Of a DNA stretch of 64,000 nucleotides, positions 2,063 through 40,702 are shown piece by piece. Below the pieces are notes generated by a model. The model saw only the letters and a list, made by a program, of their open reading frames with translations. It was not told the DNA's origin and did no database searches. The DNA is from Pseudomonas sp. MM213. GTDB taxonomy: Bacteria > Pseudomonadota > Gammaproteobacteria > Pseudomonadales > Pseudomonadaceae. Positions within the stretch are counted from its first letter, which is position 1. Each line of letters opens with the position of its first letter. The DNA is taken from the NCBI RefSeq assembly GCF_020423045.1, contig NZ_CP081943.1:5456001-5520000 (forward strand), read 5' to 3'. Both the position numbers and the translations under genes were made by a program.

Positions 2063-2471
2063 ACAAATTTTCCTTTTGCGTTGGAGCCGCCGCTTGCCGT
2101 TTCTCACGCGGCTAAGAGGTGGCAGCTATGTGCGGGGTGAGAAAACCGGTTATGGACACCCGGGCCAGACCAAAGTCTGCCCGCACACAGCCGCCATAAC
2201 GCATTTGCGGACAGCGGATAAGCTGGCGCGATTATGCGGTTACAGGCTCTGTATGACCATAAGTTGCCAGGTTCTCACACCCGATCACTGAGTTTTCAGT
2301 GACAAGCAAAGACTAAAGAGCCCGCTTCCGAGCAACAACCTTAAAAATCTGTGGGCGTTTTCTTCGTTTTTGGTAGGAGATGTCCTGCAATGACGACGAC
2401 ATTTTTATCGACAGTGAAGCCGCCATCGCGAGCAGGCTCGCTCCTACAGGAGACTGCGGTCGTACGCGTAA
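2063..2471. other. Intergenic region with no supported gene
   Basis: I see no credible coding sequence here. It holds the 5' region of the DUF6124 gene, a small palindrome CACTGA-GTTT-TCAGTG near 2286–2302, and a single REP half at 2424–2447 with the core GCGAGCAGGCTCGCTCC. Confidence 0.6.
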
Positions 2472-2599: not shown

Positions 2600-2695
2600 A
2601 AACCGTAGTTTCTTGAATGAGCGAGCGCAATGTACCGGTTGCCGGGGCGCGATGGGGTGAAGAAAAATTCATCTGCGCCGCGGCTAAGTCGGGGC

Positions 2696-4099
2696 TTACG
2701 GCAAATGATCGGCCGCAAAGTCCGCCTCCGACCGTGCCCGCAAACGCCCCTTGCGACAGGCTTGCTGGAAGCGTTCGAAGTCGCGGTCATTCTGTTCGGT
2801 ATAGGTTTTCGCATACTTGAACAGCGCATCGGCCAGCGCATCGCTTTTGCCGATATAACCGCTGATCTGCGCGGCATGCCCGGAGGATTTGGCATGTGCA
2901 CGGGCGAGGGCGCGGCCGCAGATTCGGCCGTAGGCGGCAAAGGCTTCGGCGTCGAAGGTTTCCAGTTCGGCGGAGATTTTCATGTCGCGCAACTGGCGCA
3001 CGTAAAAATGGCGACCGTTGGGGCCGGTGGTCCAGCCGAGGAACAGATCACTGGCGGACTGCATCAGCCGTTGGCCATCGACCACGCGCTGACCGTTGTG
3101 CCGCACGCGAGACTTGGCCTTCACGTAGTCGGCGAGCACCGATCGCCGTGCTTCCTTGAATTGCAGGAACAACGGGAACTCTTGCTCGTCAGTCAGCAGC
3201 GCCACCAGGCAGCGCGTGCCGACACTGCCGACACCGACCACTTTGAACGCCAGGTCCTGAACATTGAAGCGCGACAACAGCCCGCGCCGGTCGGCTTGCA
3301 GGGTCATCCGATATTCATTCATGAACGTCTCGTAGAGCGGTCGCCAGTCCGCGAGCCGCAGCCAGTCATCGTCGGCATCCAGCAGCGTGGTGTTTTTGTG
3401 CAGATGGAAAATTTCCGGCAGGTCATCGCGAATGATCAGACGGCCTGCGGCGTCACGTTCACTGATTTTCGGCAACAATTCGGCATGGGTACGACGTTCG
3501 GCTTTGGCGATGGCGCGCTCCACGTGCTCCAGCGTGGCTTTACTCGCCTGTTGCCGCAGATCGTCATAACTGATGGACTCGTACCAAGTCTCCAACGCGC
3601 TTTGCTCCGCGCATTCGAGCATCGTTTGCTGATACGCGGCGACCACTTCGCGGCAGACGTTTTCTTCCACGGTTTCGCCATGGCGCAGGTCACGGGCGGC
3701 CACCATGAAACTCGCCACCAGACGTTTGACATCCCACTCCCAGGGGCCGGGATGGGCCTCATCGAAGTCATTGACGCTGAACAGCAGGTTGCGTTCCGGC
3801 GTGGCGAAACCGCCGAAGTTCATCAAGTGACTGTCACCGCAGATCGTCGACACCAGACCCATGTTCGCCGTGCCGGCCAGGTCGTGAGCCTGCAACAGCG
3901 CGTTGCCGCGATAAAAGGTGAACGGCGACACCAGCATGCGGCCGTAGCGCAACTCGACCAGAGAATTGACCCGTCCCTCGCTGGAGCGCTTGATCAGTGG
4001 CAGCGGGTCACGACTGGTTTTTCCGGTGGCCGCTTGATCACTGCGAGGGCAGTTTTTTCGAGCGTCCTTGCCTTGCTTCAAGCGGTCTTTGAGGGTCAT
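2696..4099 (-). CDS. DUF2252 domain-containing protein
   Basis: A 467-residue protein of the DUF2252 family (COG4320), a cytoplasmic family with a kinase-like pattern of motifs but no established reaction. The diagnostic segment is visible: FYRGNALL near residue 63, GDSHLMNFGGF near residue 88, then NDFDEAHPGPWEWDVKRL, which together resemble the catalytic and metal-binding loops of aminoglycoside-phosphotransferase-like enzymes. The C-terminus has the family motifs FYVRQLRDMK and ARAHAKSSGH. Length is normal for the family. It is a single-gene unit with its own terminator at 2574–2599. The dense open frame on the opposite strand is a composition artefact. Confidence 0.85.
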   Translation of the reverse strand: MTLKDRLKQGKDARKNCPRSDQAATGKTSRDPLPLIKRSSEGRVNSLVELRYGRMLVSPFTFYRGNALLQAHDLAGTANMGLVSTICGDSHLMNFGGFATPERNLLFSVNDFDEAHPGPWEWDVKRLVASFMVAARDLRHGETVEENVCREVVAAYQQTMLECAEQSALETWYESISYDDLRQQASKATLEHVERAIAKAERRTHAELLPKISERDAAGRLIIRDDLPEIFHLHKNTTLLDADDDWLRLADWRPLYETFMNEYRMTLQADRRGLLSRFNVQDLAFKVVGVGSVGTRCLVALLTDEQEFPLFLQFKEARRSVLADYVKAKSRVRHNGQRVVDGQRLMQSASDLFLGWTTGPNGRHFYVRQLRDMKISAELETFDAEAFAAYGRICGRALARAHAKSSGHAAQISGYIGKSDALADALFKYAKTYTEQNDRDFERFQQACRKGRLRARSEADFAADHLP

Positions 4100-4288
4100 G
4101 GGGGCTCGGTAGATAAGAGTGATGAAAGGTCAGGTTTTGGTATCCGAACGATTTGTCTTGGATGGGATGAGTGTAGAGAAAAATGCTCAAAGCACTGCTT
4201 CAAGTTGGTTGATGTCATTTTGATGTTGAAGTGGGCAGTAATGGCCCCTAAAGTGATTGTTCTTATGTTCAAGAGAAGGAACTCCCGC

Positions 4289-4492
4289 GTGAAGATTATC
4301 CAGTGCTCTTTGATCTTGGGTGCCGTGTTCGTGTTGAACGGCTGTGTGGTGCAAAGCACCTATAGCAAGACCATCGCCGTTACCAAGGACGCCGACGGTC
4401 GGGTGATTCAAACCGTTGAAAGCGAGACAGTGGTTCAGCCAGCCTCGGGTTACCCACTGCGACTGGAAAAAATCAAAGGTGTTCAACCTTGA
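4289..4492 (+). CDS. Small predicted lipoprotein, unknown function
   Basis: A 67-residue protein beginning with a short basic start, a hydrophobic segment (CSLILGAVFVLNG) and a lipobox L-N-G-C, so it should be lipidated at the cysteine near residue 19. The mature part is small and polar (VVQSTYSKTIAVTKDADGR...). I prefer the GTG at 4289, which has AGAAGGA nine bases upstream, over the ATG at 4265, which would add eight residues. Nothing identifies a function. It faces the next lipoprotein gene across a shared bidirectional terminator. Confidence 0.6.
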   Translation: MKIIQCSLILGAVFVLNGCVVQSTYSKTIAVTKDADGRVIQTVESETVVQPASGYPLRLEKIKGVQP

Positions 4493-8275: not shown

Positions 8276-8935
8276 ATGCAGCGTCATCCTTCCAACAGAA
8301 ACCTGAGTATCCATTACGGTGAGACCTTCGAGGGTCTCCCAATCATGGCCAGTAAAGGACCCTTCATCTACGAGCATCTGGCAAAGCTTAAATTGACCAT
8401 AGAGCGTGCTCTTGCTCAGTACCCACGTGTATTCGCATTTCGGTGTGATCTTCGATTTCCTACTCACGTTCAGGTGAGTGATCAGGCCTGCTCGAATGCT
8501 GCGATTGGCGCCTTTATGGAGTCGTTCAAGGCCCAGATTGAAAGTAACCGTAATGCTGCAGCACAACTGAACCCATACGCACATACCAGCGAGGTGCGCT
8601 ACGTATGGGCGAGAGAGCAGGGGCAGGGCAGTCGAGTGCATCATTACCACCTGCTCATCCTGCTGAATCAGGATGCGTTCTATACAGTCGGAAGGCTTGG
8701 CTCTGCAAACTCCAACATGTTTCACCGACTGGAAGAGGCTTGGGCCAATGCGCTGAGGTTGTCGGTGGCTGAAGTGCAGGGTCTGGTCGAAGTGCCTGAC
8801 AATGCTACGTACCGCATACAGCGTAATGACCCCGTTGGGCAGGCGGCGTTATTCGAGAGGGCAAGCTATCTCTGCAAAGCGGCAACCAAGCCATTTGGTA
8901 ATGGCTATCACGTGTTTGACAGTAGCCGTAACTGA
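8276..8935 (+). CDS. Inovirus-type Gp2 / YagK-YfjJ family protein
   Basis: A 219-residue protein matching the inovirus Gp2 / YagK-YfjJ C-terminal family, found in P4-like satellites and islands and likely to act in replication. Visible marks are FAFRCDLRFP, EVRYVWAREQG, and the HxH-type strand VHHYHLLILLN near residues 121–131, similar to the metal-binding motif of HUH replication enzymes, then RASYLCKAATK..G.GYHVF at the C-terminus. Catalytic activity is inferred. The ATG at 8276 has no strong ribosome site; an internal ATG at 8345 is possible. It follows a palindrome-rich gap and is followed by a strong 16-bp hairpin. Confidence 0.75.
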   Translation: MQRHPSNRNLSIHYGETFEGLPIMASKGPFIYEHLAKLKLTIERALAQYPRVFAFRCDLRFPTHVQVSDQACSNAAIGAFMESFKAQIESNRNAAAQLNPYAHTSEVRYVWAREQGQGSRVHHYHLLILLNQDAFYTVGRLGSANSNMFHRLEEAWANALRLSVAEVQGLVEVPDNATYRIQRNDPVGQAALFERASYLCKAATKPFGNGYHVFDSSRN

Positions 8936-9665: not shown

Positions 9666-12600
9666 ATGCCATGGAGTCCAGGACAACTCGTCCGCCACAT
9701 AGACGACCCGGCGAAAACCGGCACGGTCACCGATCAGACCCGGTTGCGCGCCTCCGGCTCCCAGTGCCGGGTAAACTGGAGTGGCCGCCTGGACTGGCAT
9801 TATGAGGAGGAGCTCGTCGCGGCTGAGTCGGGTGACAACGACGTCTACGAGCTGATCCAGGAAGGGCGCTACGGGCGAGTGGACGACCTGCGAAGGCTGC
9901 TCACGCATGTCCACCTCGCGGGACGGCTGGCGAACGTCGTCTACGCCATGGGGTTAACCCAGACTGACTTCTATCCGCACCAGTACAAGCCGCTGCTGAC
10001 CCTGCTGGATTCACCGGTAAACGGCCTGTTGATTGCGGACGAGGTGGGCCTGGGCAAGACGATCGAAGCCGGCTTGATCTGGACCGAGTTTCGTGCCCGT
10101 TACGACATGCGCCGGTTGCTCGTGGTTTGTCCCGCGATGCTGAGGGAGAAGTGGCGGCTTGAGCTGTCGTCGCGGTTCGGTCTCGAAGCGCGCGTCGTCG
10201 ACGCGGCCGAGCTCCTGCAGGAGCTCGAGTCCAGCGAGCGCCGAGAACGAGCATGGATCATTAGCTACCAGGGCATCCGTGTTCCTGGAGGTTGGGATCC
10301 CGCCGAGAGCGACGCGTCCCGGCGATCAGTCCGGGCCAGGCTCGCCGATCTTCTCTATCGCCATGCCGACCGGGAGCCCCTGCTTGATATGGTGACCTTC
10401 GACGAGGCGCACTACATGCGCAACGAAGGGACAGGTGCGTGGCGAACCGGTAGTCTGCTGCGCGACGTCAGCACGCATCAGGTGATGCTGTCGGCGACGC
10501 CGATCAACCTCGGCTCGGACGACCTGTTCAACGTGCTGCGTTTACTCGACCCAGACCACTTCGAATTCCCGGACGATTTCAGGAACGTCGTCTCGGCCAA
10601 CAGGCCGGTAATCGCGGCCAGCGACATCGTGCGCAACCCATCGAGCGACGCTCTGGACATCGTGGAGGCGATTCACAAGATCAAGTCGTCGCGTTACTTC
10701 GAGAGATCCGAGCGCGTCGACCGCCTGATCGAAGAGGCCGAGGCGGTCGACGAATGGACGAACGAAAGACGTGTCGAATTCGCGGCCAAGATTGAGCGGC
10801 TCAACCTGATCGCACACATCGTCACCCGAACGCGAAAGCGTGAGGTGGATATGAAGAGGGTCTTGCGCGACGTCACCGTGTTCGAGGCGGAGATGTCGCC
10901 CATTGAAGCCGAGCTTTATCAGGCGATCACGGAAGGTACGCGGGAATACGCGCTGATAAACGGCATCGAACACGGTTTCCTCCTCAGTACGCCCCAGCGG
11001 ATGGTCGCCTCCAGCCCTGCCGCACTGCTACGCACTTGGCGCGAGGATATGGTGGACGCGGACGCAATGGCCGTCGCGTCGGACGAGGCGGACGAGGACG
11101 AAGACTCGGTACGGGACGCGTCGTCGGGGCTCAAGCGGTATCTGGCCGGTCGAGTACTCCGCGAGTTCGATGCGGGCGAACTCACTCGGCAGGATTCGAA
11201 ATTCGCGGAGTTGAAGGATGCTTTGAGAAGGTTCCTGGCCGAGGATCGTGAGGACAAGGCGATTGTGTTCACGACCTTCCGGGGCACGGCCCGCTATCTC
11301 GTCAATCGACTTTCCGCCGAGAACGTCGAGGCAGGTTTGCTGATGGGGGGAGAGGAGTTCGACAAGGAGGCCGTGGTCAACGCGTTCCGGGAACATCGCA
11401 CCTGCCGTGTGCTCGTCTGCACCGACGTGGCGGCAGAGGGTGTCGATCTGCAGTTCTGCAGGCTCGTGGTCAACTACGACCTGCCGTGGAACCCGATGCG
11501 CATCGAGCAGCGTATCGGCCGTATCGACCGTATCGGGCAACAGTCGAACCGTATCCTAGTCTGGAACTTCGTACACAAGGAGACCATCGACGCCCTGATC
11601 CTCACCCGTTTGGCCAAACGAATCGGGGTCTTTGAGAGCGCGCTAGGTGAAACGGAAGAGATCCTTGGCAAGGTCCGACGTCTCGAGGATGTGCTGCTGT
11701 CCAAGCACCTGACGACCGATGAAGAAACGCGCCTGATTGAGGAAGTGGCACTCGCGATTGAGAACTCCAAACGCAAACAAGAGGAGCTGGAGCGTGAGGC
11801 GATCCAACTGGTCGCCCACGGCCAGCAGTTGCTGGCACAGATTGAGGCAGCGCGTGGTGAGGGAAAAACAGTCACCCGGCATGACTTGATTCGATACGTG
11901 GACGGTTACCTCAGGACTGTTCCTGGCTGCCGGGTCGTTGCTGCACGTGGCGAGCCAGACACCTTTGACATAGGTCTGAGCCCGAGTTTGGCGGCGGAGT
12001 TGGATGAGTTCGTCAGAAAGGAGAATCTGGTCGGAAAGACCGGGCTGGGCTCGGGGCAGACAAGGCGTTGCCGCTTTACCGACAGAATCACCGAGAAGCC
12101 GAAACCCGGTGAAGAGATCGTCCATCGCTTCCATCCGATCGTCCGTTTCCTGTCACACAAGGCCGAAAACTGCGAGGTTCGCTTTCCGCTCTATGCGTCC
12201 AGAGTCACCGCCAATGGCCTCACGGCGGGCCGGTACGCCGTGATGACCCGATTTGCAAGTTTTTCGGGCGTGAAGGAGGAAGAACATCTCCTCGTCGCCG
12301 CCATACCGCTAGATCGGGACACCCCCTTGGATGTTCGTGTAGCGGAAGCTCTACTCGATACGGTCAGGAAATCGGGCGTCGACTGGCCGACGGTTGCGCT
12401 TGATGTCTCTTCGGAGTCCGGGGTGGCCACCGTAGAGCGATGCGAGGAAATTCTCAGAGATCGCTACAGGGCACTCAATGGCGAGAAGCGGCGCGAAAAC
12501 AGTGATCGTGCCGACGTGCTATCGCAGCTATTGGAGGACCACGTCCGCAAGAAGCGTGACGGATTCGAGAAGCGCATCGCGGGTCACGAGACATTCGCTT

Positions 12601-12797
12601 CGCTGTATGGGAACAGTCCGGATGGCAAGCGACGCAAAGGTCTGGCGAACGCAGAGCGCAAGAAAATGGAGGATTTCCTGGCGAGGATGGAGACGCGCCG
12701 GGCAACGCTGATCAGGAAGAGCCAGACCTTTTCGGCGGAAACGCGCGAGATCTGCGTCTTACTCGTGGACGTAGTGCGGGAGGGGGAAAGGCCATGA
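9666..12797 (+). CDS. SNF2-family (RapA/HepA-like) ATPase, first gene of an unassigned two-gene module
   Basis: A 1,043-residue SF2 ATPase expected to translocate on or remodel DNA or protein-DNA complexes. The N-terminus (W-SPGQLVRH--DPAKTGTV) is a small beta-rich domain. The motor follows: Walker A DEVGLGKT (residues 125–132), DEAH (246–249), LSATPINL, then RecA lobe 2 with FTTFRGTARYL, DVAAEGVDLQ and QRIGRIDRIGQ (about 615–625). The remaining 400 residues are coiled-coil-rich and lack a visible nuclease motif. GGGAG precedes the ATG. The gene overlaps the actin-fold ATPase gene by four bases (ATGA). GC content is clearly higher than in the island genes to the left. It resembles DrmD of the adjacent DISARM in length and layout but is a separate protein. 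Confidence 0.85.
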   Translation: MPWSPGQLVRHIDDPAKTGTVTDQTRLRASGSQCRVNWSGRLDWHYEEELVAAESGDNDVYELIQEGRYGRVDDLRRLLTHVHLAGRLANVVYAMGLTQTDFYPHQYKPLLTLLDSPVNGLLIADEVGLGKTIEAGLIWTEFRARYDMRRLLVVCPAMLREKWRLELSSRFGLEARVVDAAELLQELESSERRERAWIISYQGIRVPGGWDPAESDASRRSVRARLADLLYRHADREPLLDMVTFDEAHYMRNEGTGAWRTGSLLRDVSTHQVMLSATPINLGSDDLFNVLRLLDPDHFEFPDDFRNVVSANRPVIAASDIVRNPSSDALDIVEAIHKIKSSRYFERSERVDRLIEEAEAVDEWTNERRVEFAAKIERLNLIAHIVTRTRKREVDMKRVLRDVTVFEAEMSPIEAELYQAITEGTREYALINGIEHGFLLSTPQRMVASSPAALLRTWREDMVDADAMAVASDEADEDEDSVRDASSGLKRYLAGRVLREFDAGELTRQDSKFAELKDALRRFLAEDREDKAIVFTTFRGTARYLVNRLSAENVEAGLLMGGEEFDKEAVVNAFREHRTCRVLVCTDVAAEGVDLQFCRLVVNYDLPWNPMRIEQRIGRIDRIGQQSNRILVWNFVHKETIDALILTRLAKRIGVFESALGETEEILGKVRRLEDVLLSKHLTTDEETRLIEEVALAIENSKRKQEELEREAIQLVAHGQQLLAQIEAARGEGKTVTRHDLIRYVDGYLRTVPGCRVVAARGEPDTFDIGLSPSLAAELDEFVRKENLVGKTGLGSGQTRRCRFTDRITEKPKPGEEIVHRFHPIVRFLSHKAENCEVRFPLYASRVTANGLTAGRYAVMTRFASFSGVKEEEHLLVAAIPLDRDTPLDVRVAEALLDTVRKSGVDWPTVALDVSSESGVATVERCEEILRDRYRALNGEKRRENSDRADVLSQLLEDHVRKKRDGFEKRIAGHETFASLYGNSPDGKRRKGLANAERKKMEDFLARMETRRATLIRKSQTFSAETREICVLLVDVVREGERP

Positions 12798-14539
12798 AGA
12801 GTTGGAAGGAACAACTACGGGACGTGAAACGAACCTTGCAGGGGGAGCACTCGAACGAGACGCTGGAAGAAAAGCCGACGATAGTCGACTTCATTCCCCC
12901 TGCTTCTTGGTTAGAAGCCTCCGACAAAAGCGGGGACGACACTCTACATTCTGGCTCCAAATCATCGGTTACCCATGGGCATCGAGATTCCTGCAAGCCG
13001 AGTCGGCCCACTGCCGCAGGGACAGCTTCCGCTCCCGCCGGTTCGTGTTCCAAGGGAGGAGGCGGTGCGAATAACCAAAAGGAAGATGCAGCGAAGAATT
13101 TGCCGGGTAATTCCCAGATATCAGATGACGCGCGATCAAGCACGCAGAACCATACGGCGCCGACGCCAGTCTTTCGGCCACATATCGATGGGGGACGCTC
13201 TTTGGCCATGCCCGGCTGGGCTGACGCCAGTAGCTCGTTGCAGCATCCCGAGCACCAGGGTGGGAGAACAGCGCCCATGGTGGTCAGAATCGGGGTGGAT
13301 TTCGGAACCGCCTTCACGAAAGTAGCGATTCGGGCGGGCGTCGACCTGGTCCCAGTCGACTGGTCCGCGGTCACCGGTGACGAGTCGACAACCGGGCGAT
13401 ATGTGATACCCGGCTTCGTCCACCGTGCACCGGATGGCGAGTACTTCTGGCGGCGACTCGCGGAGACCGATATCCAGGGCAACCTCAAACTTCCGCTCAT
13501 CGAGATGGCAGGTTCCGATGAGTGCCCGATGTCCGCCCTGGCTTATCTCGCATTGGTCATTCGCTACGCCAGGGCGTTTCTTTATCAGCACCCCGAGGTC
13601 GGGCGGAAACTGGCGGCCCGTTCGCTTCGTTGGGAGTTGAACGTCGGATGCCCCACCGAGCCACACGAGCGACCGGAGGTCGTGGACCTTTTCCGGCGCA
13701 TAGCTCGGACCGCTTGGCAACTGGCGGGAGTAAGCCATCTTCAGGAGTCTAACATCACTGCCGCGTGGAAGAGAGGCGAAGCGGACGTCGGCCTCGAGAC
13801 GGAGCCGGGCGTCGTGCCGGAGTTCGTGGCGCAGATCGCTGGTTACCTCGGTTCGCCCCAGGTGAGCGAAGGATTGCACGTGCTGATCGATATTGGTGCG
13901 GCTACTCTCGATGTGGCGACGTTTAACGTCGTTTTGCCAAATGATCTCGACTCCTCGCCGCGAATTCCAATCTTCTTCTCCGCCGTCCGTCCACTCGGAA
14001 CCCACTACCTGTACCACAACCGTCATTCCAGGCTCGACCTTGATTTTGCATGGGACGATGCGGCGCCTGTCGAGCCTGCCGATGGCTTCGCGAAACGACA
14101 CGGCAAGCGTCGGGATGATGTCGATACTGTCGACTCGGAGTTCGTGAACCGAGTCGCGAGATGCATCGCCGGGGTGACCGATGGCACCCGTACCAACTCA
14201 CGGGGAGATCCGCGAAGCTCTGCCTGGAGTGAAGGGCTGCCGATATTCGTCACCGGCGGCGGATCCAGTTGTGAACTCTATCGCCGGGCAATCGAAACCG
14301 GAGAGCTCAATCTGAAACGAAGGATGTACTTACCGAGCAGCTTCCGGTTCATCGAACTGGATCCACTCGGCGCGAAGTTCCCGCACTTCGGTATCGAAAT
14401 CGGAGGCCGGCTCAGCGTCGCGATCGGTTTGACGGAGGATGCGGAAAGCATCGCCCGTGTCGTTCCACATCGCGATATCGGGCCGATTATGCGGTCTGTG
14501 ACGGAGCGTATCGACCATACGGAGCTCTATGACGACTGA
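12794..14539 (+). CDS. Actin/Hsp70-fold ATPase with disordered N-terminus
   Basis: A 581-residue protein whose C-terminal part is an actin-like ATPase fold: phosphate-1 loop VDFGTAFTKV (about residues 168–177), phosphate-2 loop IDIGAATLDVATF (about 364–376) and the adenosine motif VTGGGSSCELY (near 486). No substrate-binding domain of the Hsp70 type follows the ATPase. Residues 40–160 are Ser/Gly/Pro/Thr-rich and probably unstructured. The ATGA overlap and ribosome site GAGGGGGAAAGG support the ATG at 12794; Met162 just before the fold is a possible internal start. Tight coupling to the SNF2 gene implies a joint function, perhaps ATP-dependent sensing or assembly; this is inference. No named defence family is recognised. 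Confidence 0.8.
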   Translation: MKSWKEQLRDVKRTLQGEHSNETLEEKPTIVDFIPPASWLEASDKSGDDTLHSGSKSSVTHGHRDSCKPSRPTAAGTASAPAGSCSKGGGGANNQKEDAAKNLPGNSQISDDARSSTQNHTAPTPVFRPHIDGGRSLAMPGWADASSSLQHPEHQGGRTAPMVVRIGVDFGTAFTKVAIRAGVDLVPVDWSAVTGDESTTGRYVIPGFVHRAPDGEYFWRRLAETDIQGNLKLPLIEMAGSDECPMSALAYLALVIRYARAFLYQHPEVGRKLAARSLRWELNVGCPTEPHERPEVVDLFRRIARTAWQLAGVSHLQESNITAAWKRGEADVGLETEPGVVPEFVAQIAGYLGSPQVSEGLHVLIDIGAATLDVATFNVVLPNDLDSSPRIPIFFSAVRPLGTHYLYHNRHSRLDLDFAWDDAAPVEPADGFAKRHGKRRDDVDTVDSEFVNRVARCIAGVTDGTRTNSRGDPRSSAWSEGLPIFVTGGGSSCELYRRAIETGELNLKRRMYLPSSFRFIELDPLGAKFPHFGIEIGGRLSVAIGLTEDAESIARVVPHRDIGPIMRSVTERIDHTELYDD

Positions 14540-14931
14540 TGAATCGGTGTGAAGCCTTTTTGAATCGCCGAGCTCTAGCAGGGCATGCGCATCAGCCTGA
14601 TCTGCAAAGGGCACGGCGATGTAGCCAAAACGCCGATGTCCGACAAGTGCGCGCCCGCAACTGACCATGCTGGCAAAAAGCATTGAGTATGGCTTTACCC
14701 ATGTTCAGGCAGTGGATAAGGTGACGGACATCGCATCATGGCAGGCCGTGGTACCTCAGGGTTGGCCAATCTACAGCGTTATCTGCGAGCACGAACGCTG
14801 CCGTTTCAGCCCTCGAACTCCACATCTGTACCCAAGTGAATTAGTGCTTTGCGCCCATAAAACGCGCCGGGCATAGGCTTTTGCTCATCCGTATCCATCA
14901 GTTAGATGATTACGGTGCTAAGGAGTTAAGA
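14540..14931. other. Intergenic region between the SNF2 pair and DISARM
   Basis: It contains short open frames (for example a 33-codon frame from 14584 and a 69-codon frame from 14667) that match no family I recognise and look like debris of older genes. Promoter elements for drmD should lie near its end. AAGGAG at 14920–14925 is the drmD ribosome site. Confidence 0.5.
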
Positions 14932-17900
14932 ATGACCGCAATGGCGGAAGACAGCAGCTACCGTGATATCCCGGAACCGGGTCAGCTCGTCGAAGTTAGG
15001 CGCCGGCAGTGGGTGGTGGCCGAAGTGGATGCTTCCAAACTGGGCAGCGTTCAGCAGCATGCCATCACGCTGGCTTCGATCGATGAAGATGCCTTGGGCG
15101 AAGAGCTCCAGGTGATCTGGGAGATTGAGCCGGGGGCGCACGTCATTGAGAGGGCAGGTTTGCCGGCTATCACCGGGCAGGACGACTCCGACACGCTTGA
15201 GGCCTTTCTCGATGCCGTGCGCTGGGGAGCAGCTACTAATGCCGATCGCGGTTTTCTCCAAGCACCGTTTCGCAGCGGAGTGAGCCTTCAGGACTTCCAG
15301 TTGGACCCGCTGGTGCGCGCGATCGACATGGCTCGCGTCAACTTGCTGATTGCCGATGACGTAGGTCTAGGCAAGACGATCGAAGCAGGTTTGGTCATCC
15401 AAGAAATGCTGTTGCGCCATCGTATCCGCACTGTGTTGATCGTTTGTCCCGCGTCACTGCAAGAGAAGTGGCGTGTGGAGATGATGGAAAAATTCGGCTT
15501 AGAATTCCGCATCGTCGACGGTACTTACATTAAGGAGATGCGACGCGAGCGAGGAATTCATGCCAATCCATGGACCTCGTTCCCGCGCCTGATCACGTCA
15601 ATGGATTGGGCCAAAACTGGGGATGGTCTGCGTGCCTTCCGCGATATCTTGCCGGCACATGTCAGCTATCCACGCAAGTTCGACATGCTGGTCGTCGACG
15701 AGGCGCACAACGTCGCGCCGGCAGCGAGTGCGCAATACGCCATCGAGAGTCAGCGCACCCGTTTAATCCGCACCATTGCCCCGCATTTTCAGCACCACCT
15801 GTTCCTGACTGCTACGCCGCACAACGGCTACACCGAGTCCTTCACTTCGTTGCTGGAACTGCTGGATGACCAGCGCTTTGCACGTAACATCATGCCGGAA
15901 GAGAAACAGCTGTCCCAGGTGATGATTCGCCGCCTCAAGAGTGAAATTACCGACAAGGATGGGCAGCTGATTTACGCCCAGCGCAAGCTGGAAGCATTGT
16001 CTGTCAACTACACCACCAGAGAAAGAGAGATCCATCGCAAGCTGCAAGAGTTCTGTGCCAGCAGGGAAACTGCGGATGACGAATTGGGCGGCGTGACAGG
16101 AGCGTCCTTCGTCAATCAGCTGCTGCGCAAGCGCTTGTTCTCATCGCCGGCTGCCTTCGCGTCGACCCTTGAAAAACATGTCGCGACTTTGGAGAACGGC
16201 GGAAACGGTAAGGCACGGACGGATTTGTCCGAGCGCATCTTGCTCAAGGCCATTCAGCGTGCGGAAGAGGATTACGCCAACGACGCGGATGTCGAGGTTG
16301 CGCAGCAAGAGGCCGTCGAGGAAGCCACGCGCCACTCGCGCCCCTTGAACGCAGAAGAGCGCTTCCTGCTCGACGAACTCAGGCATTGGGCTCAGCAGGC
16401 GATGAATCAGATCGACTCCAAGGCCAAAGCTCTGCTCGTCTGGATCGATCGGCATCTGAAGACCGATGGAGTCTGGAACGGCAAGCGTGTGATTCTCTTC
16501 ACCGAGTACCGCACCACGCTCGATTGGTTGCACCAGATTCTGGCAACTCATGATTTGGGTGGGGATCGCCTGATGATCCTTCACGGCGGCATGGATCACG
16601 ACGATCGAGAACAAGTGAAGGCGGCATTCCAGGCCGCTCCAGACGTTTCTCCTGTGCGCATCTTGCTGGCCACCGATGCCGCTTCCGAAGGTATTGACCT
16701 GCAGAACCACTGCAACTACCTCATTCATCTGGAGATCCCGTACAACCCCAACGTCATGGAGCAACGTAATGGTCGTATCGACCGTCACGGCCAGCGCGAA
16801 AAAGAGGTGATGATCTGGCACCCGGTCGATGCTCGTGAGGACGAGGGGGCTGTCGGCGGCCACAAGGAAGACATCCTGCGTGCGCTGCGCAAGCTTGACT
16901 CCATGCGCGCCGACATGGGCAGTGTGAACCCAGTGATCGCACCGCAGATGTCCGGGCTTATCGAGGGATCTCTGCGCGATCTGGATACCCGCCTGGCGGA
17001 CGCGAAGATCGCCCAGGCTCGTCGCTTCGTCCGTACCGAAAAAGACCTTACCAATCGGGTGGCCAAGTTGCATGAGCGCCTGGTCGAGACGCGGGAGGAC
17101 TTTCATCTGTCCCCCGAGCACATCCTGAAAGCAGTCGAGACTGGCTTGGCGCTGGCCGAGAAGCCAGCTCTCAAGCCATTGATTATGGAAGGTGCCGCGC
17201 CGGGGAGCATCTTCGAACTGCCACCGTTGGGAGGTGCTTGGGAGCGTTGCCGCGAAGGGCTGGAACATCCCTTTACTGGTAGGACCCGCCCGGTGACTTT
17301 CGATCATGAAGTCGCCAAGGGACGAGATGATCTGGTGCTCATCCATCTCAACCATCGCTTGGTACAGATGTGCTTACGTTTGCTGCGCGCCGAGGTCTGG
17401 GCTCAGGAGGACAACAAGCGGTTGCACCGGGTGACGGTGCGAGTGTTGCCTGACGATCGTCTCGAGGCCCCGGCTGTCGTGGTCGTGTCACGCTTGGTGA
17501 TCACTGGGGGTAACCATCATCGCCTGCATGAAGAGCTAACTGTGTCTGGCGGCTATCTGCGCGAACAAGGCTTCAAGCGCGAGGATGGCGTCACTCGTGT
17601 GCAATCCTGGCTGGACGAAGCGGAGCCGTGTCTGCTTGACGCCTCAGCGTTCGACAAACTGCACTATCGCTTCGCCGCTGCAGAAGAGGCCATCCAGCAA
17701 ACACTCACGACACGATCGCGTAACCGCCTCGAGTTTTTGGGCAACACCTTGGGGACCCGCAAGAAGAAAGAAACGGAAGACATTCTTGCTGTGCTCGAAG
17801 AATTGGATAGCGCCATTCGCAAAGAGCTGGGCAAGGACGAGCTGCCTGAGCAGTTTTCTTTGTTCAGTGAAGATGAGCGCACCCAAGTCCGCCGTGATAA

Positions 17901-18057
17901 CTCGGCATTGCAGGCACGTCTTGCGCGCATTCCAGCCGAGCGGGAGCAGGAAACTAGCGCCATCGAAACACGCTACGCAGAACCACAGGATCGCACCTTC
18001 CCGGTAGCCGTCATTTTCATCGTACCCGCATCGTTAGCCCTTGGAGGCCGCCCATGA
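14932..18057 (+). CDS. drmD: DISARM protein DrmD, SNF2-like helicase
   Basis: A 1,041-residue SNF2-family helicase, the marker of class 1 DISARM. Motifs: DDVGLGKTIEAGLV (Walker A, residues 142–149), DEAH (256–259), LTATPHNGY, then FTEYRTTLDWL, LLATDAASEGIDLQ and QRNGRIDRHGQ (about 611–621). I chose the ATG at 14932 because AAGGAG lies six bases upstream; the frame is open back to a TTG at 14881. It overlaps drmMI by four bases (ATGA), so the two are translationally coupled. In class 1 systems DrmD works with DrmMI and the DrmABC core to restrict incoming DNA; the exact step is not settled. Confidence 0.9.
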   Translation: MTAMAEDSSYRDIPEPGQLVEVRRRQWVVAEVDASKLGSVQQHAITLASIDEDALGEELQVIWEIEPGAHVIERAGLPAITGQDDSDTLEAFLDAVRWGAATNADRGFLQAPFRSGVSLQDFQLDPLVRAIDMARVNLLIADDVGLGKTIEAGLVIQEMLLRHRIRTVLIVCPASLQEKWRVEMMEKFGLEFRIVDGTYIKEMRRERGIHANPWTSFPRLITSMDWAKTGDGLRAFRDILPAHVSYPRKFDMLVVDEAHNVAPAASAQYAIESQRTRLIRTIAPHFQHHLFLTATPHNGYTESFTSLLELLDDQRFARNIMPEEKQLSQVMIRRLKSEITDKDGQLIYAQRKLEALSVNYTTREREIHRKLQEFCASRETADDELGGVTGASFVNQLLRKRLFSSPAAFASTLEKHVATLENGGNGKARTDLSERILLKAIQRAEEDYANDADVEVAQQEAVEEATRHSRPLNAEERFLLDELRHWAQQAMNQIDSKAKALLVWIDRHLKTDGVWNGKRVILFTEYRTTLDWLHQILATHDLGGDRLMILHGGMDHDDREQVKAAFQAAPDVSPVRILLATDAASEGIDLQNHCNYLIHLEIPYNPNVMEQRNGRIDRHGQREKEVMIWHPVDAREDEGAVGGHKEDILRALRKLDSMRADMGSVNPVIAPQMSGLIEGSLRDLDTRLADAKIAQARRFVRTEKDLTNRVAKLHERLVETREDFHLSPEHILKAVETGLALAEKPALKPLIMEGAAPGSIFELPPLGGAWERCREGLEHPFTGRTRPVTFDHEVAKGRDDLVLIHLNHRLVQMCLRLLRAEVWAQEDNKRLHRVTVRVLPDDRLEAPAVVVVSRLVITGGNHHRLHEELTVSGGYLREQGFKREDGVTRVQSWLDEAEPCLLDASAFDKLHYRFAAAEEAIQQTLTTRSRNRLEFLGNTLGTRKKKETEDILAVLEELDSAIRKELGKDELPEQFSLFSEDERTQVRRDNSALQARLARIPAEREQETSAIETRYAEPQDRTFPVAVIFIVPASLALGGRP

Positions 18058-21000
18058 AACCCCTCGATATCCATGATGAATGGTTGTCGCTGATCGAGGT
18101 CTCCGGTCCTTTTCTCGCCACGCCCGTACTGAAGCGCGTCTTCTCCACCGGTCTGCCGGCAGTCGTGCCGCGTATTCGCCAATATCTGCGTCAGGCCTAT
18201 GACGAATGGTGCGAGGCTCGTGACAACGACGATCCTAGGTTCGCCGAATTGCACCGAGCCTGGATTCATGAGGTGCTCGCCCGCGGCTTGGAATACGATG
18301 AGTCCGATAGCGGTGAACTTCTCCTGCGTGGTGAACGCATGCCTGCGGAACTACGCGTAACTCTGCCTGAGCATGGTGTCACTTTGGTGCCTGACTATGC
18401 GCTGGTCTCGGGTGGAAAAGGTCAGCTGCTCGTCCAAATCTATCCAGCAGGAATGGATCTTCAGGCTGCCCTGAAAATCGATGGCTGGATCGCCAGCCCA
18501 GCCGAGCGCGTGGAGCGGCTCTGCCGCGCCAGCGGCTGCCGCCTCGGGCTGGTCACAGATGGAGAGCGCTGGATGCTGGTCGATGCTCCTGTCGGCGCAG
18601 TATCGACCTTCGCCAGTTGGTATGCGCGCCTCTGGGGGCAGGAGCGGCTAACGCTGCAGGCCTTCCTTACCTTGCTGGGTATCAGGCGCTTCTTCGGTCC
18701 GTACGATGAAACCTTGCCCTCAATGCTGGACGAGTCCCTCCAGCACCAGGAAGAAGTTACCGATGCCTTAGGCGAGCAGGTCCGCCGCGCGGTCGAGGTA
18801 CTGATCCAGGCGCTGGACAAGGAAGACCGCGAACGCTCTCGGACATTGCTGCAAGGTGTCGAACCGGTCGAGCTCTACGAAGCGGGCCTGACCATCATGA
18901 TGCGTCTGGTGTTCCTATTGTCGGCCGAGGAGCGTGGGCTCTTGCTGATGGGGGAAGAGGTTTACGAGAGCAACTACGCCGTTTCCACTCTGCGTATGCA
19001 ACTGCGCCAGGAAACCGAGGAAGTGCTGGAGCGGCGCAACGATGCATGGTCCCGGTTGCTGGCTACCTTCCGCGCGGTGTATGGCGGTATAGAGCATGAA
19101 ACGCTGCGCCTCCCCGCCTTGGGCGGTTCGCTATTCGATCCTGACCGTTTTCCCTTCCTCGAAGGCCGTGCCAAGGGCTCCGACTGGAGGGTCGATGCTG
19201 CCCGCCCTCTACCGATCGATAACCGTACAGTGTTGCTCCTGCTGGAGGCTATCCAGCAATACGAAGGCCGTACCCTGTCCTACCGTGCATTGGATGTGGA
19301 GCAGATCGGCTACGTCTACGAGGGTCTGCTAGAGCGCACAGTCGCTCGAACCGAGCTGGTTACGGTGGAGCTGACCGGTGGCAAGGGCGCGAAGAAGACC
19401 CTCTATGGTCTGGAGGAGCTCGAAGCTCTGCACTTGCGGAGTGACGCTGCATTAGTTGATGCGCTTTCTGGTGCCGATGCGATCAAGCGTGGCGCAGGAG
19501 CTATCCGTAAGGATCTCGAGCGTTCGGTTGATGCCGCTCAGGCCAACCGCCTGCTCACAGCCTGCGCTGGCGATGATGAGCTGCGTAATCGTGCTCTGCC
19601 GTTCCTTCAGTTGCTGCGAACCGACCCTTGGGGTTATCCGCTTATCTATCCCAAAAGTGCCTTCATCGTTACAACGGGCAGCGATCGTCGCGAGACGGGT
19701 ACGCACTACACGCCGAAGTCCCTTACCGAACAGGTCGTCGAGAGCACCCTGGAACCCGTAGTTTACATCGGTCCAGCTGAAGGGCTTCCGCGAGAGCAAT
19801 GGCGTCTGAGGTCAGCGGGCGAGCTATTGGACTTGAAGATCTGCGATCCGGCCATGGGGTCGGGTGCTTTCCTAGTGCAGGTCTGCCGCTGGCTCGCCGA
19901 ACGCATTGTCCAAGCTTGGGCTGCGGAAGAGACCGCCAATCGGTACATAACCAGCGAAGGAGAAACTGTCGAGAATCTTGCGGGGCAGGAGGTTCTTCCG
20001 GCCAATCCCGAGGATCGTCTGGTGATCGCACGGCGTCTGGTCGCAGAGCGTTGTCTCTATGGAGTAGATCTGAATCCGCTAGCGGTAGAGCTTGCCAAAC
20101 TATCCATCTGGCTGGTGACCCTTGCCAAGGGTAGACCGTTTGGCTTCCTTGATCACAACCTCAAGTGTGGCGATAGTCTGCTGGGCATTCATCGGCTCGA
20201 CCAGCTGACTGAGCTGAGCATGACGCCTGGCGGGAGGGGGCAGCAGCGACTCTTCGGCAAGAGCATCGAAAAGGCGGTACGCGATGCTATTGAGTTGCGT
20301 AAGCGCCTGCGCGAGACGCCGATTCGTGACATTCATGATGTTGAGGCTATGGTGCGCCTGGATGCAGATGCGCGTCACTGTCTCGAGGTGCCTGAACGAA
20401 TAGCTGATGCGTTCATCGGAGAGGTGTTCGCTGCGAGCGGCAGGGGCGGGGACTTGGCAACAGAGCTCTCAGCTCTTGTCATCCAAGCAGGGCAGGCTGC
20501 CGATGGCGATAAGAACTCGCTCTTAGACATCATCAATCGGACAAAATCTATGCTCTCGGTTGATTTGCCCGCTGGGAAGTCAGGTCGCAAACCCTTCCAC
20601 TGGCCACTGGAATTTCCGGAAGTTTTTGAAAGTGATAACGGAGGGTTTGATGCAATTCTAGGTAATCCTCCATTTTTAGGGGGGCGGAGAATTCGCTCAG
20701 CACTTGGACTCACATTTCTAGATTGGTTGACCAGAGCGCTTTTCAAAGGTTCCAGTGGTAATGCAGATCTTTGTGCGTTTTTTTATCTACGTAGCAACGC
20801 ACTGGTTCGAAAAGATGGTGTTTTTGGACTTCTTGCTACAAATACTATCAGTCAAGGTGACACGAAAGCCTCTGGCTTAGATGTGATCTGTAAGGCGGCG
20901 ACAATAATTTCAGCAGTAACGAGCTTTGAATGGCCGGGTAAAGCCAATTTAACGGCTGTGATTTTGGTTATTTACAGCGGAGCATGGTTTGGACGCAAGT

Positions 21001-22394
21001 CACTCAATAACTGCGAAGTTGACTCCATAGATTCGTCTCTTGGGGCTGGTTTTGATTTCGAGGGTGATCCGTTTTTCTTGAGTGAAAACAAGAGTAAGTC
21101 TTTTCAAGGCTCAATTGTCTTGGGGAAGGGTTTTGTTATACCGAAAAAAGTTGCAGAGGCGTTAATTAGCAAAGATCCGAAGAACAAAGATGTTTTATTT
21201 CCATACTTGCGGGGCGAGGATTTTACGTCTAGTCCAAATCAACTCCCGTCGCTCTGGGTAATAAATTTCTTTGACTGGCCGTTGGATAGAGACTCGGGGG
21301 TTGAAGGATACAGTGGTCCGGTTGCAAGTGACTATCCAGACGCTCTGGAAATTATCAGAACAACGGTTAAGCCTGAAAGGACCAGAGTAGATGAGAATGG
21401 CGAGTATGTTCTCAGGAAGCCGCTTCCACAAAAATGGTGGATATATGCAGATAAAAGGCCTGGGCTCTACTCAAGAATAAAAGAATTTCGTCGAGTGTTG
21501 TTTCATTCGTTCACGGGTAAGTATGTTTCATTTGACTTTGTGCCAACCGGCTACGTATATGCTGGACCACACAATGTATTTGCTCTTGAGCAGTTTTCTG
21601 AGTTTGCTGTCCTTCAGTCATCGATTCATCAGGTATGGGCATGGCGGGTTGGGTCCACAATGCGAAATGATCTCCGTTACTCGAATAAGCAAGTTTTCGA
21701 AACGTTCGCATGGCCAAGTTCTTTTTCTGAACTTGAGTGTGTAGGGGGGAGTTTTCATCAGAAGCGCCATCAGTTAATGAGCTCTAAAAAAATTGGGTTG
21801 ACTGGTTTGCTTAATCAGTTTCATGATGGTTTGGATGATTCAATTGAAATGCAAGAGTTGAGAAAACTCTTTGCTGGCATGGACTTGGCTGTTCTTGCTT
21901 CATATGGCTGGAGCGACATTGATCTTCAGCATGATTTTCATGAGGTGGGCTACCTTCCAGAGCAAGATTGCATTCGATTCACTATCTCGGAATCTGCGCG
22001 AGTTGAGATCCTTCGGCGGCTTTCAAGTTTAAATCGACAGCGCTACGAAGTAGAAAATGCCCAAGGGTTTAATGTAGGGGTAGCCACGAAGCAACTTCCG
22101 CGTGCTAGTCGAGACCAAGGTGAGCCAACACCTCAACAGGGCCTAGATTTCGGTGATCCGATCGTTACGGTTGCTAGTAAGTCGGGAGATGGGAGTTTAG
22201 CGAGCGTAATTCTCGAGTGCTTGCGTGGACGTTCGATTTGGCTTGCCAAGAGCGAAATACTCGCAGCTACCAACCTCCTCGATGGGCAATGGAATACTGC
22301 GATCAATGACTTAATAGTTCGTGGTCTAGTCGAGCGACAAGGGGAGCGGCGCGGTGCGAGGTACCGTGCTACTACCTCTGTGCTGGAAAACTGA
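18054..22394 (+). CDS. drmMI: DISARM adenine methyltransferase DrmMI
   Basis: A 1,446-residue N6-adenine DNA methyltransferase of the large single-chain (PglX-like, COG1002) type. The SAM-binding motif I is DPAMGSGAFLVQ (residues 598–609), and the catalytic NPPF is at 871–874 (LGNPPFLGG). The first 590 residues form an N-terminal region with a nuclease-like or helical scaffold; the target recognition part follows the NPPF. Its role is to mark host DNA so DISARM spares it. Base composition shifts from GC-rich to clearly AT-richer close to residue 860 and stays so to near the end, which suggests replacement of the recognition region. It is coupled to drmD by ATGA overlap. drmA lies 1.8 kb further on, beyond rimO. 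Confidence 0.9.
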   Translation: MKPLDIHDEWLSLIEVSGPFLATPVLKRVFSTGLPAVVPRIRQYLRQAYDEWCEARDNDDPRFAELHRAWIHEVLARGLEYDESDSGELLLRGERMPAELRVTLPEHGVTLVPDYALVSGGKGQLLVQIYPAGMDLQAALKIDGWIASPAERVERLCRASGCRLGLVTDGERWMLVDAPVGAVSTFASWYARLWGQERLTLQAFLTLLGIRRFFGPYDETLPSMLDESLQHQEEVTDALGEQVRRAVEVLIQALDKEDRERSRTLLQGVEPVELYEAGLTIMMRLVFLLSAEERGLLLMGEEVYESNYAVSTLRMQLRQETEEVLERRNDAWSRLLATFRAVYGGIEHETLRLPALGGSLFDPDRFPFLEGRAKGSDWRVDAARPLPIDNRTVLLLLEAIQQYEGRTLSYRALDVEQIGYVYEGLLERTVARTELVTVELTGGKGAKKTLYGLEELEALHLRSDAALVDALSGADAIKRGAGAIRKDLERSVDAAQANRLLTACAGDDELRNRALPFLQLLRTDPWGYPLIYPKSAFIVTTGSDRRETGTHYTPKSLTEQVVESTLEPVVYIGPAEGLPREQWRLRSAGELLDLKICDPAMGSGAFLVQVCRWLAERIVQAWAAEETANRYITSEGETVENLAGQEVLPANPEDRLVIARRLVAERCLYGVDLNPLAVELAKLSIWLVTLAKGRPFGFLDHNLKCGDSLLGIHRLDQLTELSMTPGGRGQQRLFGKSIEKAVRDAIELRKRLRETPIRDIHDVEAMVRLDADARHCLEVPERIADAFIGEVFAASGRGGDLATELSALVIQAGQAADGDKNSLLDIINRTKSMLSVDLPAGKSGRKPFHWPLEFPEVFESDNGGFDAILGNPPFLGGRRIRSALGLTFLDWLTRALFKGSSGNADLCAFFYLRSNALVRKDGVFGLLATNTISQGDTKASGLDVICKAATIISAVTSFEWPGKANLTAVILVIYSGAWFGRKSLNNCEVDSIDSSLGAGFDFEGDPFFLSENKSKSFQGSIVLGKGFVIPKKVAEALISKDPKNKDVLFPYLRGEDFTSSPNQLPSLWVINFFDWPLDRDSGVEGYSGPVASDYPDALEIIRTTVKPERTRVDENGEYVLRKPLPQKWWIYADKRPGLYSRIKEFRRVLFHSFTGKYVSFDFVPTGYVYAGPHNVFALEQFSEFAVLQSSIHQVWAWRVGSTMRNDLRYSNKQVFETFAWPSSFSELECVGGSFHQKRHQLMSSKKIGLTGLLNQFHDGLDDSIEMQELRKLFAGMDLAVLASYGWSDIDLQHDFHEVGYLPEQDCIRFTISESARVEILRRLSSLNRQRYEVENAQGFNVGVATKQLPRASRDQGEPTPQQGLDFGDPIVTVASKSGDGSLASVILECLRGRSIWLAKSEILAATNLLDGQWNTAINDLIVRGLVERQGERRGARYRATTSVLEN

Positions 22395-22520: not shown

Positions 22521-23846
<1,326 letters not shown>

Positions 23847-24214
23847 GGGGCTAACCTCGGTGGGCGCTCTGGTGGCGCTACTGATCAAAAAATGCGCAAT
23901 TTTAGCGGTGCGGTCGGCACTTGACTAGTACCCCTCTGAATCGAGTCTTACAGTGCAGGGATCTACCATGCCCTAAGAATGGGGCGCTATGGCGCTGATT
24001 CAGGTTGCGGAGTGGGAAGCTGCTATCCGGGTTACCATCCAGGCCGAACTGTCTCCAGGGTAGGGGGGGATTTGGCAAGTGAGCCTAGTGGCTCTGGTTC
24101 CAGAGAGCCCTGTAGCCAGGAGGGCTGGGGGTATGGCGTGCGTGGCACGATGCGCCAATGGTGGAGCAAGAACGTGTCCTGAGCCGGTGTTAAAGTACCG
24201 AGAATCTCGTCAAA
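23847..24214. other. Divergent intergenic region between rimO and drmA
   Basis: No gene is seen. It must hold the promoters of rimO (leftward) and of drmA-drmB-drmC (rightward), because rimO separates the latter from drmD-drmMI transcription. I see no convincing -35/-10 pair. Short GC-rich inverted repeats such as GGCTCT...AGAGCC occur near 24086–24106. Confidence 0.5.
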
Positions 24215-30138: not shown

Positions 30139-30139
30139 G

Positions 30140-30957: not shown

Positions 30958-31386
30958 GTGAGTTCAGGTACGTCGCGAAGCGACATCATGCGGGCCGTCA
31001 AGCGGGCCCACACAAGACCGGAGGTTGTCGTTCGCCAAGCACTACATGCTTTAGGGCTCAGGTTTCGTCTGCATCGCCGAGATCTCCCCGGTTCGCCGGA
31101 CATAGTCCTGCCGAAATTCCGGACGGTGGTCTTCGTGCATGGGTGTTTCTGGCACCGACATCCTGACTGCCGCTACGCGACTACCCCTAAGAGTAGACAG
31201 GAGTATTGGCTACCCAAGTTCGAAGCGAATGTAGAGCGTGATGCGCGGAAGGAAGCTCAGTTGCGAGAACTGGGCTGGCGTGTACTGGTGATGTGGGAGT
31301 GTGAAACTAAGAGCCTTGAGGCGCTGGAGGCCCGCCTCAGGCTTGAATTCGATCTTCCGCTTGGCGAACCGCTTCATAGGCCCTGA
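30958..31386 (+). CDS. vsr: Very-short-patch repair endonuclease Vsr
   Basis: A 142-residue Vsr endonuclease that nicks beside T:G mismatches left by deamination of 5-methylcytosine. The family core is intact: RSDIMRAVKRAHTRPE, LPGSPDIVLPK with the catalytic aspartate, FVHGCFWHRHPDC with the histidine and zinc-type residues, and LGWRVLVMWECE. GTG at 30958 follows AGAGGCGGGG. It lies 53 bp after drmC, so probably in the same transcript, and converges on the cytosine methyltransferase, overlapping its 3' end by 50 bp. The pairing with a cytosine methylase makes the repair role well supported. Confidence 0.9.
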   Translation: MSSGTSRSDIMRAVKRAHTRPEVVVRQALHALGLRFRLHRRDLPGSPDIVLPKFRTVVFVHGCFWHRHPDCRYATTPKSRQEYWLPKFEANVERDARKEAQLRELGWRVLVMWECETKSLEALEARLRLEFDLPLGEPLHRP

Positions 31387-40518: not shown

Positions 40519-40540
40519 GGTGTACTCCAGTGCTGTTTGT

Positions 40541-40588
40541 GTATTCCAAAAATTACCAGCTGAGAGCTTGGAATACCACTTGGAATAC
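40541..40588. repeat. TTGGAATAC sites at the right end (putative integrase arm sites)
   Basis: Direct copies begin at 40568 and 40580, and an inverted copy (GTATTCCAA) lies at 40541–40549. They match the left-end pair in sequence, orientation and 12-bp spacing and overlap the integrase promoter region. Confidence 0.7.
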
Positions 40589-40691: not shown

Positions 40692-40702
40692 AGATGTGTA
40701 TT

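Follow-up and report, generated by a model that had tools for sequence, protein, structure and literature searches.

An SNF2 motor and an Hsp70-like ATPase form a two-gene module, a candidate for an immune role, beside DISARM in Pseudomonas sp. MM213 and elsewhere in bacteria

A 64,000-nucleotide stretch of the Pseudomonas sp. MM213 genome (contig NZ_CP081943.1, positions 5,456,001 to 5,520,000, forward strand), here called the window, carries two overlapping genes next to a DISARM locus. The first (9666–12797, plus strand) encodes an SNF2/RapA-type motor of 1,043 amino acids (aa); the second (12794–14539, plus strand) encodes an ATPase of 581 aa with an actin fold resembling the nucleotide-binding domain (NBD) of Hsp70. 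Both start with ATG. The motor was assigned using the list of open reading frames (ORFs), PADLOC and NCBIfam profiles, alignment, a tree and a structure model, and the ATPase using the ORF list, a structure model and fold and profile comparisons. The junction between the genes is GGCCATGAAG, with the ATPase ATG at 12794 and the SNF2 TGA at 12795–12797 (ATGA overlap). The motor motifs DEVGLGKT, DEAH, SATPI and QRIGRIDRIGQ are found at residues 125, 246, 276 and 615, and the ATPase motifs VDFGTAFTK, IDIGAATLDV and VTGGGSS at residues 168, 365 and 486. An original prediction, made from the letters of this DNA, had proposed the pair as an undescribed defence system; the ORFs, the overlap and every motif it quoted are all in place. 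The two genes constitute one inherited module, composed of an SNF2 protein of RapA architecture and an Hsp70-NBD-like ATPase, with the catalytic motifs kept.

The Pfam matches of the SNF2 protein (SNF2-rel_dom, Helicase_C and ResIII) are all parts of the helicase core, and no HEPN domain was found in the Pfam scan. The PADLOC DrmD profile PDLC02623 covers the full length of the protein with 1943 bits; the score with the NCBIfam model NF038317 (DISARM_DrmD), 641.7 bits, is barely above the cut-off of 610. The window protein shares 31–40% identity with 19 homologues from several phyla, in which the motor motifs are invariant or nearly so, and the same applies across 59 sequences; this conservation in diverged homologues means that the observation is not due to chance. 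The structure model has a mean pLDDT of 81.3, and a fold search with it gave RapA as the top match (E 2e-34, 1,016 columns) with a root-mean-square deviation of 14.5, a large value of the kind that two-lobed motors give.

For the ATPase, searches up to E = 1 found no Pfam family, not even Hsp70 (PF00012), and searches up to 0.01 found no NCBIfam or PADLOC model. In its structure model (mean pLDDT 80.5, mostly above 90 in the core), the nucleotide-binding core comprises about residues 160–560; the N-terminus consists of a helix (residues 4–16) and a region of predicted disorder (residues 17–125, pLDDT below 50). The model ends soon past the core, with no C-terminal substrate-binding domain (SBD), in agreement with the long disordered N-terminus and missing Hsp70 substrate domain described originally. 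A Foldseek search placed DnaK/Hsp70 chains at the top (E 7e-11), and the 50 matches listed are all of the Hsp70/Hsp110 kind. The profile comparison with the window's own DnaK (probability 94.4, 219 columns, 17% identity) pairs both phosphate motifs and the NEP glutamate; E343 falls in the NEP-Glu column, D366 is also aligned with a DnaK motif and K232 lies within one residue of the DnaK lysine in an alignment read by eye. Filament actin homologues (an actin-family protein, MreB, actin-like ATPases and ParM) are weak profile matches of the ATPase (E 0.015–2.2), no better than DnaK, which is itself a weak match here (E 0.021).

Columns D169, K176, K232, E343, D366 and G488–490 are unvaried in the 86 or 89 readable sequences, and T172 (kept in 83/86), T371 (85/89) and D373 (88/89) vary slightly. 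The Hsp70 residues matching these columns presumably have catalytic roles. The protein is predicted to be an Hsp70-type NBD with its catalytic residues kept, and it is probably active, since the aligned Hsp70-type residues are mostly unvaried among homologues. A family search found no nuclease domain in either the SNF2 protein or the ATPase.

The N-terminal helix of the ATPase was considered as a membrane anchor; this candidate was rejected and kept as a weak lead, as one protein in 70 passes a crude transmembrane threshold. Of the 70 proteins whose tail is long enough, 28 have an N-terminal hydrophobic moment above that of shuffled sequences (z > 1). High moments occur in nine of the ten members of the DISARM-associated clade described below, where mean hydrophobicity is low, and are scattered elsewhere. 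Some ATPase homologues (L029, L030, L033, L034, L035 and L036) end in a double CxxC, zinc-ribbon-like motif.

Contigs from 84,980 species were scanned, and the best 80 of 147 confirmed ATPase relatives were used. The 92 loci scored, designated by L numbers, were reached via the ATPase (88) or via SNF2 (4); L023, L024 and L028 (on the contigs of L029, L034 and L074), L026 and the shorter copies L001 and L006–L020 were left out. Both genes are present in 87 of the 92 fetched loci. Among the five others, L053 and L059 show the C-terminus of SNF2 at the contig edge, L090 and L105 start 152 and 53 bases ahead of the ATPase ORF, and the 3.4-kb contig of L040 has 736 bases upstream of the ATPase with no recognisable SNF2. 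No further locus among those fetched has room for the partner yet lacks it, except for the weak L026 (genome G340), a 5.9-kb contig without SNF2 whose ATPase match (E 8e-6, 26 bits) was not accepted. The concern that the two genes might be separable in most genomes, voiced with the original prediction, is not borne out.

Gene order and spacing were compared in 83 pairs; L123, which lies on the same contig as L062, is among the 92 scored loci and not among these pairs. SNF2 precedes the ATPase in 76 pairs, and the seven reversed ones cluster on the tree in one cyanobacterial group. The gap is at most 35 bp in 76 pairs; the genes overlap in 28, by four bases in 14. No SNF2–ATPase fusion was seen among the loci.

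The module is rare in the groups scanned. For the phylum, 398 genomes were covered, that of the window among them; five have an SNF2 match above 1,000 bits, and the same five have a strong ATPase match, a sixth ATPase match being the weak one in G340. The family scan found the ATPase in 3 of 198 genomes, with SNF2 adjoining in each, and the genus scan found the pair in 5 of 249 genomes, one with a split SNF2 gene; a sixth SNF2 match in the genus (G791) belongs to the sister lineage described below. The labelled ATPase rows (74 of 89) represent ten phyla, 49 of them being Pseudomonadota, and 15 rows are unlabelled; the labels were taken as given in the records, among them many metagenome bins. 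Locus L044 is labelled Bacteroidota and is nearly identical to L043 from Desulfocapsaceae, and may be misbinned. By tblastn, six plasmid records contain distant relatives of the ATPase (Shinella, Aminobacter, Leptolyngbya, two Sphingobium and Cyanobacterium HL-69); an SNF2 of the pair family adjoins the ATPase in all five that were inspected. Carriage by viruses was considered and rejected, as no phage record and no confirmed viral contig with the pair was found.

The window contains a complete class 1 DISARM gene set (drmD, drmMI, drmA, drmB and drmC), and the DISARM neighbourhood claimed originally is confirmed by PADLOC, NCBIfam and Pfam. The canonical class 1 drmD, the second SNF2 gene of the locus, starts 341 bp downstream of the pair (14881–18057, plus strand, listed start TTG; NF038317, 1391.5 bits with a cut-off of 610). 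It is followed on the plus strand by drmMI (18054–22394), encoding an MmeI/PglX-like adenine methyltransferase (PADLOC DrmMI, 1831 bits; Pfam), the helicase gene drmA (24215–28279; NF038325, 1463 bits), drmB (28276–30138; PADLOC DrmB, 257.6 bits; MZB domain) and the PLD nuclease gene drmC (29942–30904; PADLOC DrmC, 347 bits; PLDc). The listed drmC ORF overlaps drmB, and its true start is probably further in. A DrmMII-like cytosine methyltransferase is encoded on the minus strand (31337–32401; Pfam, PADLOC).

The family as a whole is not always part of DISARM, as had been feared: relatives of DrmA/DrmB were found in 11 of the 92 pair loci, and on the L062/L123 contig via a further stretch, a lower bound given that many stretches are short. 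The majority of the fetched pair stretches have no DISARM. A FastTree phylogeny of 91 SNF2 proteins (85 of the pair, four sisters and two canonical DrmD; long branches flagged) is adequate for the window's clade and not for the deep root. The window SNF2 belongs to a fully supported clade of ten rows, all ten with DISARM genes (L062 and L074 completed by a further stretch), and the association with DISARM takes four changes on the tree. Occurrence outside DISARM is thus seen for the family as a whole and not in the window's own clade.

A separate canonical DrmD is present in all ten clade members (the window, L062, L074 and the genomes of L061, L068, L070, L072, L073, L076 and L084). The idea that the pair SNF2 replaces DrmD in its DISARM subtype was rejected, as canonical DrmD (65–73% identity) occurs in all seven genomes checked; its coordinates fit a site just upstream of drmMI in six of the seven, taking contig numbers at face value, the exception being G819, the genome of L061. 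On the tree, canonical DrmD is separated from the pair SNF2s by long branches, and the HEPN–SNF2 sisters score nearer. Because all ten clade members also have canonical DrmD, sequence comparison identifies the pair as a module added to DISARM rather than as DrmD, and the library label ‘DrmD’ as one that lumps two paralogues, the pair SNF2 and the canonical protein. The arrangement varies: in the Pseudomonas loci, the pair precedes drmD; in L061, L070, L072, L076 and L084, it is located between drmMI (often with a further gene, matching a type II restriction enzyme model in L061) and drmA. In L073, drmB lies about 4 kb downstream of the pair, with a drmA match in the same stretch, and in L068 drmMI lies just upstream of the pair, also with a drmA match.

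Other members of the family occupy other defence settings. L043 and L048 are BREX loci, with BrxC 20–24 bp upstream of the pair and PglX about 100 bp downstream; in L043, where the distance to BrxC is 20 bp, PglZ lies beyond PglX. The BREX genes of L043 were identified by profile and those of L048 by similarity to L043. Next to the pair in four loci is a PDC-S68 RecD-like gene, recognised by profile in L022 and L124 and by family membership in L058 and L064. Further defence-type genes are DruE-like (L124, L126), MkoC-like (L029), Dsr1-like (L082) and DpdE/DrmMI-like (L097), together with a type III methyltransferase in L095 and an annotated Hachiman HamA in L003. Flanks of 2.5 kb on either side are available for 64 loci; in 25 of these, no ORF of 120 aa in the same direction lies within 100 bp, and the pair looks like a unit of its own.

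Among SNF2 proteins found without the ATPase, the nearest relatives (506–556 bits) are HEPN–SNF2 fusions: L127 (9037–12669), L128 (8037–11585), L129 (20–3673) and L130 (1346–4939). They have about 165–210 additional N-terminal residues; HEPN_Swt1 was found in all three sisters scanned (L127, L128 and L130), and an RNRWAH motif is present in all four. No ATPase-like ORF occurs in the 9–20 kb stretches around the four sisters, that of L129 beginning at the contig start. PADLOC scored the L128 sister as DrmD (404 bits). These fusions are themselves candidate single-gene defence proteins. A C-terminal region of SNF2 specific to the pair was also considered and rejected, as three of the four sister proteins align over the whole model. 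The fusion to a HEPN RNase domain in sisters without the ATPase supports a putative SNF2 sensor with an exchangeable partner or output module.

The remaining features of the window belong to the surrounding island. A full-length rimO gene for the S12 methylthiotransferase (22521–23888, minus strand; NCBIfam) lies between drmMI and drmA; a second copy elsewhere in the genome is 88% identical. The other fetched pair loci yielded no rimO relative, and neither did the DISARM stretches from two related Pseudomonas (L162 and L163), where drmMI and drmA are separated by 2.6 kb of other sequence and by about 0.2 kb, respectively. The window's DrmMI is 66.6% identical to that of L162 over nearly the full length and 43.7% identical to that of L163 over residues 601–1431 (the part covered); DrmA is much more similar across the same loci (95.1% and 93.4%). 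As DrmMI is far more divergent than DrmA, it looks as if part of DrmMI had been exchanged between related DISARM loci.

A Gabija pair (35604–39156, plus strand; PADLOC GajA 774 bits, GajB 806 bits) lies beyond the DISARM genes, about 21 kb downstream of the SNF2–ATPase pair. The island appears to be inserted at the tmRNA gene ssrA, since a tyrosine integrase gene adjoins ssrA (39262–41096, minus strand; Pfam and RNA search). A second ssrA 3′ end, as a repeat marking the attachment site, was sought and rejected: it is absent in the window, and a 23-base pattern with one mismatch allowed is absent elsewhere in the genome. A C4 antisense RNA with a1/b1 targets (2115–2316, minus strand; RNA search) and a YagK/YfjJ protein (8276–8935, plus strand; Pfam) suggest a P4-like satellite element in the left part of the island. 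On the same side, a 620-aa ORF (2630–4492, plus strand) has no Pfam or PADLOC match, and with a 467-aa ORF antisense to it the coding strand is unsure.

SNF2-based defence and defence using Hsp70-like proteins are already known kinds; the pairing itself is undescribed in the library models run and the literature searched. DISARM DrmD shares with the pair SNF2 the RapA-like layout, the operon at this locus and the whole-length PDLC02623 match, whereas the pair SNF2 is a paralogue found mostly outside DISARM with a near-constant Hsp70-like partner. HEPN (Swt1/Abi2-type)–SNF2 fusions are the nearest SNF2 relatives found; according to PMC3710099, such a fusion of HEPN to an SWI2/SNF2 ATPase, WQE_15321, is active. 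Its membership of the sister group L127–L130 is an assumption of ours. In these fusions a HEPN RNase effector is attached, whereas the window SNF2 has no HEPN domain and has the ATPase partner instead. CnuD of type III CoCoNuT is likewise an Hsp70-like ATPase in a defence operon; as described in PMC11090510, it comprises an NBD and an SBD, its Walker A-like motif is degenerate and its partners are McrBC-type GTPases, whereas the pair ATPase has no SBD, keeps its nucleotide motifs and has an SNF2 partner.

RapA-like SNF2 proteins also take part in modification-linked defence in BrxHII (BREX type 3), in the SNF2 helicases of BREX-related systems (PMC12839542) and in ARMADA (PMC12458937). These are associated with a PglX-like methyltransferase, and an Hsp70-like ATPase goes unmentioned in the available texts: hsp70, ASKHA, chaperone, DnaK and the whole word actin have zero occurrences in the main text of PMC12839542, as do hsp70 and chaperone in PMC12458937. 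In the literature search, which covered few preprints or subscription papers and no supplements, no paper was recognised as describing a pair of SNF2 and an Hsp70/actin-fold ATPase. The original statement that the pair matches no named system therefore holds for the ATPase and not for the SNF2 protein, which alone matches existing defence profiles (PDLC02623 and NF038317).

Eukaryotic SNF2 remodellers (INO80, SWI/SNF and RSC) carry actin/Arp modules. They too combine an SNF2 motor with an ATPase of the actin-superfamily fold; this is an analogy only, as the bacterial ATPase folds closest to Hsp70 nucleotide domains and not to Arps.

The reading that we prefer, with the chances evenly balanced, is that of an unnamed immune module, a motor for DNA surveillance partnered by a nucleotide switch, which acts alone or is plugged into DISARM or BREX. 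The SNF2 protein and the ATPase would form a complex. The motor would track along invading DNA or, in the manner of RapA, along a transcription complex bound to that DNA; the ATPase would serve as a nucleotide-state switch that sets motor engagement or passes a signal on, comparable to the actin-related proteins on SNF2 remodellers. Where the pair lies in DISARM or BREX, modification and destruction would come from the neighbouring system; alone, the pair would probably clear or stall phage complexes or act via a host effector. The sensing and signalling role proposed originally, and the novelty of the effector step, are likewise inferred. A fuller version, tentative and at somewhat less than even chances, regards an SBD-less Hsp70 NBD as a near-obligate partner that provides a RapA-like SNF2 protein with its switch or output. 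In this version the module would work alone in many bacteria and would have been captured several times by DISARM and also by BREX, the sister lineage having a HEPN RNase instead; in kind it would match the SNF2–Arp machines, as a bacterial equivalent used in immunity. As a distinct undescribed module the original prediction is supported; stand-alone action independent of DISARM at this locus is not.

The preferred reading draws on the co-occurrence and close spacing of the two genes, the correlated sequence distances of the partners, the kept motif columns, the fold matches, the BREX insertion, the HEPN swap and the defence context. A set of 24 defence or neighbour proteins has relatives in 38 of 67 pair loci (at least 14 kb, own-locus queries excluded) and, with 11 DISARM loci removed, in 27/56, compared with 1/20 control stretches. 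Several points weigh against this reading. The count of 38 is inflated by the partial choice of the set from the same neighbourhoods and by a few query names given by position (BrxA, BrxB and HamB), and the controls are 20 fixed stretches from five genomes that are themselves pair carriers. The other 29 of the 67 loci have no match to the set, and four of the 25 own-unit pairs are DISARM loci (L035, L062, L074 and the window). Distant members are under-sampled through the use of the best 80 relatives, and near-identical loci kept among the 92 (L002/L022/L107, L051/L052/L055, L095/L099, L043/L044 and L046/L057) overstate the number of independent cases. Pairwise sequence distances of the partners correlate (r = 0.94, n = 77), which is expected for any linked genes and is no proof of binding. 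The structural fits have modest TM-scores together with strong E-values (0.40–0.49 for SNF2 with RapA; 0.29–0.39 by query length and at most 0.58 by target for the ATPase), the N-terminal helix of the ATPase is not universal among homologues, and neither protein shows an effector enzyme. In the window's own clade, moreover, the pair could be a mere DISARM accessory.

That last point is also an explanation in its own right, unlikely in our judgement, in which the pair is an extra part of a class 1 subtype, widens or adjusts what the DISARM proteins recognise and is inactive by itself. It draws on the DISARM genes beside all ten SNF2s of the clade, on the ATPase gene–drmA spacing of –4 to 2 bp in L061, L072 and L084, and on the name DrmD given to the SNF2 protein by PADLOC and NCBIfam. 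However, this clade is small and nested in a tree of 85 pair SNF2s on which the DISARM label needs four changes, and other members occur with BREX, with other defence genes or alone.

It is quite improbable that the two proteins act in a chaperone-like manner, as a nucleoprotein-recognising Hsp70-like machine in which the ATPase and the motor dismantle phage protein–DNA complexes such as the replication or transcription machinery. The fold matches to Hsp70/Hsp110 nucleotide domains ahead of actins, the kept Hsp70-type catalytic residues and the likeness of SNF2 to RapA, which according to structure titles recycles RNA polymerase, are consistent with this, but the ATPase model has no substrate-binding domain, and no J-protein or exchange factor was found among the neighbour families scanned, a subset of the neighbours. 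A non-immune housekeeping or DNA-repair module (RapA-like transcription recycling) prone to landing in genomic islands is very unlikely: the RapA-like architecture and the 29 loci without a defence match would suit it, whereas the rare and patchy distribution (5/398 phylum and 5/249 genus genomes, one with a split SNF2), the carriage on plasmids, the operon-like insertion in BREX and DISARM and the HEPN-fused sisters speak against it.

If the reading of a surveillance motor with a switch partner is true, annotation has concealed a widespread antiviral module: its motor goes under the name DISARM DrmD and its partner matches no Pfam-A, NCBIfam or PADLOC model. PDLC02623 matches and near-cut-off NF038317 matches should accordingly not be taken as DISARM by themselves, a correction of annotation that we suggest. 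Defence systems would then swap whole motor-plus-switch cassettes between DISARM, BREX and stand-alone settings, and the pair would offer a compact two-protein bacterial system for studying how SNF2 is coupled to an actin/Hsp70-fold ATPase.

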